Source of the DNA: Thermovirga lienii DSM 17291
GTDB taxonomy: Bacteria; Synergistota; Synergistia; Synergistales; Thermovirgaceae
Assembly (NCBI GenBank): GCA_000233775.1
Contig: CP003096.1
Location: 1,576,501 to 1,640,500 of the forward strand
Reading direction: 5' to 3'
Length of the DNA: 64,000 nt
Shown here in pieces: positions 34,287-40,997 of this stretch; within the stretch, counting starts at the first letter, position 1, and the number at the start of each line of letters is the position of its first letter. Both the position numbers and the translations under genes were made by a program. The notes below the pieces were generated by a model. It searched no databases, was not told the DNA's origin, and saw nothing but the letters and a program-made list of their open reading frames with translations.

Positions 34287-34886
34287 TTAAGCCTTTGTTT
34301 TTTTTCTTCCCTTGGCGACCTCATCCATGTGAGCACAATGCCCTTTTGTCCTAAAATCAGGGCAACTACAATTATTGTGTTTCAAGTCGACGACGAACTC
34401 TTCCTGACCATCTTTTACAATGTATATATGGTCAGATACCATACGAGAGACCAATTTATCGGCATGTTCGTCAGTCTCTCCACCAACTCTTTTGCTTTCG
34501 TCTATAGCCTTGTTCGAAAGATTATCAGCCAGGCTGTTTTCCTGTCTTGGTATCCACTGAAGTCGAGCTTTCGTCTTATCGATGAGGAACAGGGCCTCTT
34601 CTGCCAAAGGTAAAAGTCTGGGCTCCCTTATCTTCCAGTTGCCCAGCATCTGATTGACCACCAACTTGCTGTCACCTTTCACAACACAATTGTAAAGTTT
34701 CCTATTTAAGAGTTCTCTAAGCAAGAGGATCAGAGCCTCGTACTCCGCTTCGTTGTTGGTTCGCTTGCCTAAGTACTTGGACTCCTTCCACAGGATCTGC
34801 CCCTTGCCAAAATCAACGATACAAGCACCTGCTCCGGCCTCTCCAGGATTCCCCCTGGACGCCCCATCAAAGTAGCCAATTATCAT
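34287..34886 (-). CDS. RNase HI-like protein fused to a SWIM zinc finger
   Basis: A 199-residue protein. Residues 1-130 are an RNase H fold with all catalytic carboxylates: Asp7 (YFDGASRGNPG), Glu46 (NNEAEYEAL), Asp72 (GDSKLVVNQM) and Asp121 (NSLADNLSNKA). Residues about 150-190 carry a SWIM-type zinc motif CxCx8CxH (C173, C175, C184, H186) in a context typical of SWIM (FVVDLKHNNCSCPDF). Ordinary RNase HI is about 155 residues without this finger. The finger could help bind nucleic acid or a partner. Probably removes RNA from RNA:DNA hybrids. Confidence 0.85.
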   Translation of the reverse strand: MIIGYFDGASRGNPGEAGAGACIVDFGKGQILWKESKYLGKRTNNEAEYEALILLLRELLNRKLYNCVVKGDSKLVVNQMLGNWKIREPRLLPLAEEALFLIDKTKARLQWIPRQENSLADNLSNKAIDESKRVGGETDEHADKLVSRMVSDHIYIVKDGQEEFVVDLKHNNCSCPDFRTKGHCAHMDEVAKGRKKTKA

Positions 34887-34971
34887 GCTATTGCTCCTTT
34901 CATAAAAACTTTAATATGAACATTGACTCATTATACTAACTATAACGACCTAAGCCATTATATCAATAACA

Positions 34972-34995
34972 AGCAGGCGCCCTAAGGCGCCTGCT
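34972..34995 (-). terminator. Intrinsic terminator of the small-protein transcript
   Basis: A 10-bp perfect stem AGCAGGCGCC (34972-34981) / its complement (34986-34995), GC-rich with a 4-nt loop. On the minus strand it is followed by TTGTTATTGATAT. It lies 43 nt past the stop of the 60-residue gene. Confidence 0.8.
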
Positions 34996-35038
34996 TCCGA
35001 TAGCCCACTCACTTATTTATTAAAGACAAAACCTCACA

Positions 35039-35221
35039 TTACAAGGATTCCGCTAAATGATAAGCCGCTGAAGTTTGAGGTGAGGATACAGCATCCTGAG
35101 ATTTGGCCAACAACCAATGGCCACTTTCATCCTTGGTCCACACATTGAAGCTCGTGAAAGTTTCTTCTATTATGCTCTGATTTGCCATGTACCAGTTGCC
35201 ATTTTGATCTTTTATCCACAT
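35039..35221 (-). CDS. 60-residue protein with two Trp-Lys-Asp-Gly-Trp repeats
   Basis: A small gene with GGGAGG 6 nt before ATG 35221, an upstream consensus promoter and a strong terminator downstream. The protein contains two copies of the pattern W-x-K-D-x-x-G-x-W, at residues 2-10 (WIKDQNGNW) and 28-36 (WTKDESGHW), 26 residues apart. Each is followed by a hydrophobic turn and Ala. The rest is Ser/Ala-rich. There is no signal peptide or membrane helix. I do not recognise a family. Two Trp-flanked KDxxG turns suggest a tiny beta-hairpin repeat fold, perhaps carbohydrate- or nucleic-acid-binding (speculative). Confidence 0.7.
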   Translation of the reverse strand: MWIKDQNGNWYMANQSIIEETFTSFNVWTKDESGHWLLAKSQDAVSSPQTSAAYHLAESL

Positions 35222-35284
35222 AATTATCCCTCCCGTTTTTTTTAAAAATCACTAACCCCTCACACCAAATCAAAACGGGCAGGT

Positions 35285-35338
35285 TCATCTTATTCGTCCT
35301 GGTTCAGGATGTATTCCGGAAGCCAAACTTCTAACCAC
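35285..35338 (-). CDS. Possible 17-residue leader peptide
   Basis: GTG at 35338 is placed 7 nt after GGAGG. The frame reads VRSLASGIHPEPGRIR and stops at 35285, all within the 5' leader of the small-protein transcript. Too short for statistics; the support is spacing, promoter position and clean stop. It might be a regulatory uORF or chance. Confidence 0.35.
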   Translation of the reverse strand: MVRSLASGIHPEPGRIR

Positions 35339-35371
35339 CCTTATTCCTCCTTTGTTCTGTGCTTGGGGTAA

Positions 35372-35400
35372 TTTATATCAACTATTCTTCAGTTTGTCAA
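35372..35400 (-). promoter_or_regulatory. Consensus promoter of the small-protein transcript
   Basis: Minus strand: -35 TTGACA (35400-35395), 17-bp spacer, -10 TATAAA (35377-35372). Near-perfect sigma70-type promoter; the start at about 35365 gives a 145-nt leader and a transcript of about 390 nt. Confidence 0.8.
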
Positions 35401-35451
35401 CTGCAGTTTATTATTTTTGGCTTTTTGAACGTTTTCAAGCTATGCAGTTTA

Positions 35452-35465
35452 TGCAACCGGTTGAA
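35452..35465. promoter_or_regulatory. LacI-family operator upstream of the AOR gene
   Basis: TGCAACCGGTTGAA: a 10-bp perfect palindrome CAACCGGTTG that fits the LacI/GalR consensus TGNAANCGNTTNCA with one mismatch. It lies between the divergent small-protein promoter and the AOR gene (which has TATAAT at 35562-35567). A related site precedes the lacI-type gene at 39323-39336. Confidence 0.65.
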
Positions 35466-38477: not shown

Positions 38478-39302
38478 TCAACCCCAGAGTTCACCCTGCG
38501 GAGTGAATATTTGGGGAACTACAAGGACTGCCTGAGGACGGATTCGCTTGTCCCTTAGCCGATTTATCATAAGCCGCCCAGATAAGGCTCCTAAATGAAA
38601 CGCAGGAAACTCCAATGTCCAAGCACCCAATATGGAAGCTTCTTCCTGGGAACCACAGAAAATCAAAACATCATCAGGGGAAGCTTCCACTTTTTGTCCT
38701 AACCTACCATCCAACACGTGACATTTTGCATTCTTTTTCTGCGTTTGATATTTGGAAAGGAACGAATACACGGCCCCCTCGCCAGGGTAATATCTGAAAC
38801 CCTGCCCTTTACTTAGTTTCTCTATCTTCTCCACGATGGCCTTCTCGTCAAATTTGATGGAAACCCCATCAAATTGATGCTCACCCACAACGACAACTGG
38901 CAGGTTTAGTTCTTCCGCTGGTGGTTTTTCGTAAACAAATATGAGCCCATCCACTCGCCTGGCAGAAAGGACCTTCAAGGCATTGATTCTTTTTTTATCG
39001 TCTGAAGAAGTTTCTTTGATCATTATCTCTACCCCTATCCTTTCCATCACCCTCTCCAAGCCACATAGATAGAGACCAACCCACCAAGGGGACAGCTGCT
39101 TGAACACAACCCCTATCGTATCGGTCGTTTTCGTGGAAAGTCCCCTTGCCAACACGTCAGGCCTGTAACCAAGTTTTTTGACCGCTGCCCATACTTTTTC
39201 ACAGGTGGCAGCACTTATCCTAGGGTCTCCTTTCAAGACCCTGCTCACCGTGGCCTTGTTGACCCCAGCCTCCGCTGCTACATCGGCCATTGTCACCTTC
39301 AT
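38478..39302 (-). CDS. LacI-family regulator (short)
   Basis: A 274-residue repressor. The N-terminal helix-turn-helix and hinge are canonical (MADVAAEAGVNKATVSRVLKG, cited as VAAEAGVNKATVSRVLKG, then LGYRPDVLARGLSTK). The periplasmic-binding-protein-like ligand domain is about 60 residues shorter than in LacI/GalR. It contains TIGVVFKQLSPWWVG and AILGAWTLEF-like remnants, so ligand binding may be altered. It is convergent with hom. A LacI-type half palindrome lies just upstream of its start, suggesting autoregulation, and a full one lies upstream of the AOR gene. Confidence 0.85.
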   Translation of the reverse strand: MKVTMADVAAEAGVNKATVSRVLKGDPRISAATCEKVWAAVKKLGYRPDVLARGLSTKTTDTIGVVFKQLSPWWVGLYLCGLERVMERIGVEIMIKETSSDDKKRINALKVLSARRVDGLIFVYEKPPAEELNLPVVVVGEHQFDGVSIKFDEKAIVEKIEKLSKGQGFRYYPGEGAVYSFLSKYQTQKKNAKCHVLDGRLGQKVEASPDDVLIFCGSQEEASILGAWTLEFPAFHLGALSGRLMINRLRDKRIRPQAVLVVPQIFTPQGELWG

Positions 39303-39322: not shown

Positions 39323-39336
39323 TACTACCGGTTGCA
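39323..39336. promoter_or_regulatory. Auto-operator candidate of the LacI-type regulator
   Basis: TACTACCGGTTGCA: the right half CCGGTTGCA matches the LacI consensus exactly, the left half has two mismatches. It is 21 nt upstream of the start codon and shares ACCGGTTG with the palindrome at 35452-35465. Confidence 0.5.
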
Positions 39337-39359: not shown

Positions 39360-40997
39360 CTATTCAAAGCAGCTTCCGCCTATGAATTCCCTCAAAATGG
39401 ACGTGTTGGGAACCACGTCGGAAGGGATGAAAGGAAAGTACTGAGAAAGGGTCAAAAGCCTTTGGGCTTCGCCGTACACAGGAGAAGACTCTTCCACGCT
39501 TCTCAAAAGGCCCTCGGTATATCCTTTCAATACAGGCAGCTCGTACACTAGGGCGGAATTGAACATTCGATCCGCCTTCTCCTGGTAAGGAAAAATGTAA
39601 TCCTGGGCACCCTTAACAACTGAGGGCCACTGCATTAAAGTAGCCTCCGCACTTTTACCTCTGGTTCGGTAATCTCTGACCAATCGCCTTAGCAACCTGT
39701 TATCCGTAGTACTAGTTCTATTGTGTCTATCCATGCTTATTCCAGTGAGAGGAGAAACAAAGATCTTGTAGACCTTCTCATCGGGAATTCCTCTGGTTAT
39801 CAACTGGTTCAGGCCATGAATCCCCTCTATTATCACCACACCTTGCTTTTCCAACTTCAACGTAGGTCCTTTCTCTCTCTTTCCTGAAATGAAGTTGAAC
39901 CTAGGCAGAACCACTTCCTTGCCCGCAAGGATTGCATCAAGTTGCTGCTCGAGAAAATCCAAATCCAAGGCGTATATGGACTCGAAATCAAAATTACCGT
40001 CAGCATCCCTCGGGGTCTTCTCCCTGTCCAAGAAATAGTCATCAAGGGATATCACAACAGGTCTTTTGCCACAGACCCTCAGGCATATGGCCAATCGCTT
40101 GGCTGTAGTGGTCTTTCCAGAACCGGACGGACCGGCTATGCATATAACTTTAACAGTTCCTTTTTCTATTATGTCTCCGGCTATCTCATTGAGTTTTTGG
40201 TTGTGCAAGGCCTCCGATACCAAGATGAGCTCCTGCGCTCTGCCAGATGCCACATACCTATGCAGGTTATCCATCGTACTTACGCCCAAAATATCCAACC
40301 ACTCGGCATATTCCTCGAATACGTCCGCTAGCTTCCGAGGTGGTCTGAAAGGAGGCAGTTCCTTGGGCGATGTGACCGTAGGAAACCTAAGGACCACTCC
40401 ACTCCTGAAAGGGACCAGGTCCCACGATTTAATATAACCTGCAGAAGGGGCAAGGGGGGTATAAAAATGGCCATACACTCCATCACAGGACCACAACGTG
40501 ACAGGGTCTATCCGTGCTGCCTCTAAAAGGGCAGCCTTACCAAGATCGTTCTGACTCCTGAATATTTGTTTTGCCCTATCCAAGGGCACAACCTCCATCT
40601 TTATGGGCAAATCGTCATGGACAAATGACTCTAGGGCCTCGCGCACAAGCCTTAGATCTTCCTGATCAAGGCCCTCTCCTTGTACTTCGCAGAAAAAACC
40701 ATCACTTATGGAGTGTCTTATAAAAACTTCCTTACCTAGAATCTTCCTGCATGCTACCACCAATAAAAAACTAAGGGTGTTCCTGTAAACGGCCATACCC
40801 TCAAATGAGGATGTATCGACAAAGTCCACTTCGCAATGGTCATCTATGGTCCAAGTCAAGGGTCGCAGGTACCCGTTGACATGCCATGCAACCACTGGTT
40901 TATCGTTCAGGCCGCAAAGGGAAAGAACCTCAATACCAGACACAGGTTTATGAAATTTTTCTACTCCTATCCCTCTTATAGATACAGAAAAGGCCAC
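39360..40997 (-). CDS. TGS/ThrRS-like nucleoside kinase (uridine-kinase domain)
   Basis: A 545-residue protein with a ThrRS-like N-terminal half. A TGS-like domain (about residues 1-65) is followed by a ThrRS second-additional-domain-like part with GVYGHFYTPLAPSAGYIKS. A P-loop kinase domain follows from about residue 280: VICIAGPSGSGKTTTAKRLA, VISLDDYFLDREKTPRDADG, VVIIEGIHGLNQLI and RLVRDYRTRGKSAEATL. The last three are uridine-kinase/phosphoribulokinase-like. The same architecture is known in Thermotoga and clostridial nucleoside kinases. GTG start at 40997. Probable cytosolic nucleoside phosphorylation; specificity unknown. Confidence 0.82.
   Translation of the reverse strand: MAFSVSIRGIGVEKFHKPVSGIEVLSLCGLNDKPVVAWHVNGYLRPLTWTIDDHCEVDFVDTSSFEGMAVYRNTLSFLLVVACRKILGKEVFIRHSISDGFFCEVQGEGLDQEDLRLVREALESFVHDDLPIKMEVVPLDRAKQIFRSQNDLGKAALLEAARIDPVTLWSCDGVYGHFYTPLAPSAGYIKSWDLVPFRSGVVLRFPTVTSPKELPPFRPPRKLADVFEEYAEWLDILGVSTMDNLHRYVASGRAQELILVSEALHNQKLNEIAGDIIEKGTVKVICIAGPSGSGKTTTAKRLAICLRVCGKRPVVISLDDYFLDREKTPRDADGNFDFESIYALDLDFLEQQLDAILAGKEVVLPRFNFISGKREKGPTLKLEKQGVVIIEGIHGLNQLITRGIPDEKVYKIFVSPLTGISMDRHNRTSTTDNRLLRRLVRDYRTRGKSAEATLMQWPSVVKGAQDYIFPYQEKADRMFNSALVYELPVLKGYTEGLLRSVEESSPVYGEAQRLLTLSQYFPFIPSDVVPNTSILREFIGGSCFE

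Follow-up and report, generated by a model that had tools for sequence, protein, structure and literature searches.

Organization of the locus

The window, by which we mean the whole 64,000-nucleotide stretch of DNA that was analysed, comes from the 2.0 Mb genome of Thermovirga lienii, available as two contigs. A promoter, a short leader frame, a gene for a 60-residue protein and a terminator were all found on its minus strand; 'mini-W' is our own name for the family of the 60-residue protein. Every element that the original prediction had placed here is thus present in the right order, namely the consensus promoter with its 17-bp spacer, the 18-codon frame with a ribosome-binding site, the frame with two W-x-K-D-x-x-G-x-W repeats and the GC-rich terminator. 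The interval assigned to the unit (34972-35400) omits two palindromes located further upstream (35406-35430 and 35452-35465), which are included among the features below (Shine-Dalgarno sequences are abbreviated as SD).

35452..35465, minus strand: palindrome resembling a LacI-type operator, reading TTCAACCGGTTGCA on this strand, one mismatch to TGCAACCGGTTGCA, between mini-W and the divergent AOR gene
35406..35430, minus strand: 25-bp palindrome GTTCA-N15-TAAAC, on the upstream side of the -35 box and 5 bp away from it, either an operator or an UP element
35372..35400, minus strand: promoter TTGACA-N17-TATAAA (TTGACA 35395-35400, spacer 17 bp, TATAAA 35372-35377)
35285..35338, minus strand: leader uORF of 18 codons, MVRSLASGIHPEPGRIR followed by stop, GTG start, SD GGAGG
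35288..35296, minus strand: Arg-Ile-Arg (+X+) motif, codons CGA-ATA-AGA, then TGA, from leader comparison
35272..35283, minus strand: 5' (anti-SD) arm of a hairpin, CCTGCCCGTTTT, beginning 4 nt past the A-site codon AGA of R-X-R
35229..35239, minus strand: 3' arm of the hairpin, AAAACGGGAGG, including most of the mini-W SD
35228..35234, minus strand: mini-W SD GGGAGGG, seen in the sequence, relatives also having a strong SD
35039..35221, minus strand: mini-W gene, 60 aa, two Trp-flanked beta-hairpins (W2-W10, W28-W36)
34971..34996, minus strand: intrinsic-terminator-like hairpin AAGCAGGCGCC-TTAG-GGCGCCTGCTT, a GC-rich inverted repeat with a modest T tract

Among mini-W relatives the SD, the promoter and the terminators recur, and GC-rich hairpins lie 3' of many of the genes. 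In Thermovirga, the gene next to mini-W on the downstream side encodes an RNase H/SWIM-like protein, and its upstream neighbour is a divergent gene for aldehyde ferredoxin oxidoreductase (AOR). The former (window 34287-34886) codes for an RNase H-type protein with a weak C-terminal match to the SWIM zinc finger. Mini-W is probably a monocistronic, standalone unit, in keeping with the proposal of an undescribed small-protein unit standing on its own. The accompanying claim of independence from the neighbours holds for the downstream genes, which vary; on the upstream side several genera have a LacI-family gene 115-270 bp from mini-W and others a LacI-type operator.

The mini-W protein family

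Of 61 related genomes, 35 contained relatives at E<=1 in a six-frame protein search, and many of the matches had E<1e-6. Using a profile built from 16 members, we then found mini-W in 39 of 188 Synergistota genomes (E<1e-4), representing 17 genera and 9 families by our own count. Across 84,980 genomes, a pattern-based search yielded 21 loci, one titled 'uncultured bacterium' and 20 titled as Synergistota (Thermovirga, Acetomicrobium, Synergistales or Synergistaceae, and Synergistota MAGs). According to the alignment, W2, K4, D5, W10, W28, K30 and W36 are invariant, and the two W-x-K-D-x-x-G-x-W units, as predicted, begin 26 residues apart, at W2 and W28. The second repeat has been lost in genera g2, g3 and g5 of family f1 (families and genera carry anonymous f and g numbers; L numbers denote loci). 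For most close pairs dN/dS is 0.04-0.35 (0.61 for one) with synonymous changes predominating, and mini-W is, as judged from these substitutions, under purifying selection. Since relatives occur in 17 genera, synonymous changes are in excess, and SD, promoter and terminators recur, the sequence comparison identifies the mini-W frame as a real conserved protein and not a chance one. The original prediction was to be given up if relatives showed no conservation or broken frames; we looked for both and found neither.

No family in Pfam, NCBIfam or PHROG matched mini-W. The family is undescribed, just as the protein had been said to belong to no known one. GenBank phage and plasmid records gave no match either. 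Two-repeat relatives, MWxKDxxGN proteins, are encoded by two IMG/VR contigs with phage-like genes (179 and 112 kb) and by an unassigned contig (L081), all of them large phage-like contigs:

L110, 3001-3153: two-repeat MWxKDxxGN protein
L111, 3001-3180: two-repeat MWxKDxxGN protein
L081, 4763-4945: two-repeat MWxKDxxGN protein

Because the second repeat was absent from the search pattern and yet is present in the matches, a common origin of these proteins and mini-W is likely, and they may represent phage relatives of it.

AlphaFold modelling, one of the checks suggested for the protein, produced two Trp-flanked beta-hairpins (strands 2-4/10-12 and 26-30/36-40) with block pLDDT of about 85-90 across the hairpins and an unreliable C-terminal part; a bigger alignment gave no better model. 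Foldseek found no fold match for the model in PDB (best E 3.8). In a profile search of PDB, RecA matches turned out to be the sum of several sub-threshold pieces of a fused construct and were rejected, as were SH3b and other matches with E>0.1. In the modelled structure the Trp residues sit at both hairpin ends around the turn. The same arrangement defines Trp-zipper-like beta-hairpins, in which Trp residues at both ends of a short hairpin surround the turn. The LytA-type choline-binding repeat, as described in PMC4471590, is likewise a Trp-containing beta-hairpin followed by a linker, which the mini-W unit resembles. However, the mini-W spacing is 26 residues, there are only two units, and they have no Pfam match. 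Choline- and cell-wall-binding repeat models did not match mini-W at E<=10, and no signal peptide or surface domain was seen by inspection.

In many genera the C terminus of mini-W loosely follows [LV]S[LIV]A[LVAGS], less clearly so in Thermovirga (window 35039-35060). The tmRNA (SsrA) tag ends with ALAA. The mini-W tail is slightly SsrA-like, and a built-in degradation signal is possible.

Promoter-proximal palindrome and the LacI-type regulator

Equivalent promoters lie upstream of mini-W in relatives. In 22 of 38 unique upstream regions an element of the form GTTYA-N15-TRAAC ends 4-6 bp before TTGAC. A regular expression combining element and promoter matched 20 times on both strands of 478 kb of flanking DNA, each time at a mini-W gene, and a regulon search of the whole T. 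lienii genome found a perfect match to the 25-bp element only at the mini-W locus. The palindrome could serve as operator or as UP element, and the mini-W promoter is, from its sequence, a strong and dedicated one.

The second palindrome is of the LacI type. The window contains two such sites (0.15 expected), the other one being next to a LacI-family gene that in Thermovirga is separated from mini-W by AOR and homoserine dehydrogenase genes (the dehydrogenase was named by sequence inspection):

38478-39302, minus strand: LacI-family gene
39323-39336: second LacI-type palindrome, two mismatches, just upstream of the LacI gene

The positions of the palindromes at 35452 and 39323 suggest an autoregulated LacI regulon. 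The strict LacI-type motif occurs eight times in the 478 kb of flanks, in each case 54-238 bp upstream of a mini-W gene. The LacI gene adjoins mini-W in g12, g13, g18, g27 and g34, and the order nucleoside kinase, LacI-family regulator, mini-W is repeated in several genera. In the window, positions 39360-40997 code for a 545-residue protein whose C-terminal half contains a uridine kinase/phosphoribulokinase domain; many Synergistota have retained its gene upstream of that for LacI. Leaderless mini-W copies L078, L090, L093, L094 and L095 have a LacI-type palindrome near the start codon (54-63 bp upstream of it in the first four), and some of these genomes hold another mini-W copy with a different promoter type.

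Leader peptide and proposed translation attenuation

SD-preceded ORFs were listed automatically upstream of the 38 unique mini-W genes. What had been noted as a possible leader peptide proved to recur: Arg-X-Arg is found in the leaders of six families (f1, f6, f7, f8, f9 and f10), the 22 leaders being related within genera and so not independent. The leader ends with PEPGRIR and a stop in Thermovirga; those of Acetomicrobium include MLFKNLYTKRIR and MNGFFRRPGRIRRSLTTRKG, and further examples are MNPRFSADLSSRRR and MGFVLSCSARLR (all four followed by stop), as well as MMLYKTFFSKRLRC and MVLRIRCS, both of which continue. Many leaders have their first Arg at residue 10, with a range of 4 to 20 overall. 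Leaders of f6 have three to five consecutive Arg codons and end with SRRR or SRRRRR before the stop. Leaders are absent from f2, from f4 and from the f3 members seen.

The codons are as constant as the residues. In nearly all listed leaders the motif is written CGA-NNR-AGA, often with the stop directly after it. CGA is a minority codon, making up 5-16% of Arg codons, and yet is the first Arg codon of nearly all leaders; in GC-rich genera AGA is a minority codon as well. Among 208 SD-preceded ORFs of 6-25 codons in the 478 kb of flanks, nine contain CGA-NNN-AGR and seven of the nine are mini-W leaders. A search of 61 genomes for an R-X-R leader regulon gave 14 matches, including four mini-W leaders; L119, the other in-frame R-X-R match by inspection, has no similar promoter and was judged to be due to chance. 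Aligned leader pairs differ by 17.0 synonymous changes over about 49 sites and 14.0 non-synonymous changes over about 149, and PEPGRIR has been retained despite three synonymous changes. Because of this synonymous excess, the leader peptide is, as far as the alignments go, under selection, most clearly near Arg-X-Arg. The leader frame runs on into mini-W without a stop in g12 and in three genera of f1 (g2, g3 and g5), where a fused product is possible. As a true protein the fusion is weakened by the reduced dS and the dN/dS of about 0.2-1.6 of the extension, values that suit a UTR better. An Rfam scan of the mini-W 5' region gave only chance-level matches below gathering scores.

We next compared the 30 nt past Arg-X-Arg with the SD region against 500 shuffles. 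In Thermovirga, CCTGCCCGTTTT pairs with AAAACGGGAGG (duplex dG -16.0, 1 of 500 shuffles as good; the Thermovirga values are 1 and 0). Complementarity is significant in g1, g14 (L007), g18, g2/g3/g5 and L016. The numbers of shuffles as good are 12 for Acetomicrobium L007, 6 for L013, 16 for L016, 1 each for L027 and L028, 0 for L030 and 24 for L097. It is weak in L006 (72), and in g12 (155-301), g11, L010 and L019 (218-234) and L022 (197) it does not exceed the shuffled level; the value for L025 is 385. A modelled stalled ribosome raises the predicted SD accessibility in most lineages (mean from 0.22 to 0.42) and leaves the SD not freed in Acetomicrobium L007-L011; in the fold-based test accessibility is low for L006 and L025/L026. 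The predictions thus support an SD-masking hairpin in some lineages, not all. In the leaderless f3 members the predicted start of the transcript is close to a hairpin that reaches into the SD from its 5' side. Its arms, compared by eye, have changed and yet still match (CCCGTG/CACGGG, CCCGTAAT/ATTACGGG, CCTCGTG/CACGAGG, CCTCAT/ATGAGG), and with the predicted transcript start its energies clearly beat shuffles only in L052, L053 and L100.

The arrangement resembles two known systems. ErmDL contains Arg6-Leu7-Arg8; with a macrolide or ketolide bound, the ribosome with Arg-Leu in the P site cannot accept Arg and stalls with Leu and Arg in the P and A sites, respectively, and the mRNA refolds, opening ermD (PMC8298421). 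Mini-W is likewise preceded by a short SD-preceded Arg-X-Arg uORF, and in several genera its SD lies in a predicted structure open to disruption by a ribosome that stalls at the motif. In contrast to ErmDL, the first Arg is often residue 10 and the CGA/AGA codons are also kept; the hosts are anaerobic Synergistota. The downstream gene codes for no methyltransferase, ABC-F protein or efflux pump but for an undescribed small protein. As in erm-type units, a known arrest motif (+X+) lies in a short SD-preceded leader ORF, here in six families. We nevertheless do not file the unit as an erm attenuator, since mini-W matches neither a known resistance family nor any other family of Pfam, NCBIfam or PHROGs. 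The second system is toiL/topAI-yjhQ of E. coli, where a uORF upstream of a non-resistance gene senses several antibiotics and its stalling by elongation inhibitors opens the RBS hairpin of topAI; unlike the mini-W leader, toiL controls a toxin-antitoxin operon and involves Rho, and no sequence relation between them was seen (PMC12121999). T. lienii intergenic regions have been screened by Stav et al. 2019, and the available portion of its main text does not describe the mini-W unit (PMC6429828).

Because the layout matches those of ErmDL and toiL/topAI, we infer that a stall at Arg-X-Arg exposes the mini-W SD, and we put the probability of translation attenuation through this leader at about 0.6. 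With the leader freely translated, the hairpin would re-form and mask the SD. A ribosome stalling while X occupies the P site and Arg the A site would cover the anti-SD arm, leaving the SD free so that mini-W is made. The stall could be due to slowly decoded CGA/AGA codons or to an elongation inhibitor, either a macrolide-like one that binds in the tunnel or one of another kind; for a macrolide-like trigger we put the probability at about a third. Mini-W would then probably be a cytosolic two-hairpin binding protein produced under translation stress, with a LacI-type regulator probably supplying extra transcriptional control.

Could the signal be arginine itself, with a shortage of charged tRNA-Arg or slow CGA/AGA decoding stalling ribosomes at the two Arg codons and freeing the SD? 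The retention of CGA and AGA even where rare, the stop directly after AGA and the Arg runs of f6 would fit. However, amino-acid attenuators usually carry tandem codon runs, and most mini-W leaders have just two Arg codons, split by Ile, Leu or Met; nor did the neighbourhoods examined reveal any arginine genes or link to arginine metabolism. We regard this explanation as unlikely. Equally doubtful is control that is mainly transcriptional, through the LacI-family regulator and carbon or nucleoside status, with the leader secondary. The adjoining LacI genes, the restriction of the palindrome in the flanks to sites upstream of mini-W and the leaderless copies with a palindrome close to the start codon speak for it, but many leader-bearing loci lack the palindrome, and in Thermovirga it lies some 50 bp in front of the -35 box and could belong to the divergent AOR gene.

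A constitutive role, in which the uORF keeps the mRNA stable or unfolded or supplies re-initiating ribosomes and responds to no signal, seems less probable still. Leader genes can raise downstream expression through re-initiation, according to PMC4833913, and some lineages have no convincing hairpin or keep mini-W without a leader; yet such a role would leave unexplained both the invariant Arg-X-Arg with its codons and the SD complementarity within about 20 nt of it. Finally, mini-W might be a small toxin with masked translation, similar to type I toxin-antitoxin systems, or a phage-derived gene. The predicted SD sequestration in several genera and the relatives on phage-like contigs are compatible with this, but the conserved dedicated promoter, the lack of a hydrophobic transmembrane core upon inspection of the alignment and the absence of matches in GenBank phage and plasmid records make it highly improbable.

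We therefore return to attenuation, and consider the unit to be, with the same probability of about 0.6, a standalone stress-responsive one in which a stall at Arg-X-Arg frees the mini-W SD. More tentatively, an erm-like +X+ arrest leader that induces a Trp-hairpin mini-protein in place of a resistance enzyme might constitute a new translation-stress response. Its signal would be a tunnel-binding molecule of endogenous or environmental origin, and the mini-protein would act on the ribosome or on some other core target. The unit would represent a variant of translation attenuation tied to a new small-protein family, and it is small enough for direct cell-free testing. Leaders with +X+ have hitherto been recognised through control of antibiotic resistance; here the same signature is kept in anaerobes, some from hot oil wells, before a gene whose protein is undescribed. 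Should stalling be confirmed, +X+ arrest peptides would sense something besides clinical drugs, and a small-protein family with several dedicated layers of control would have been overlooked.
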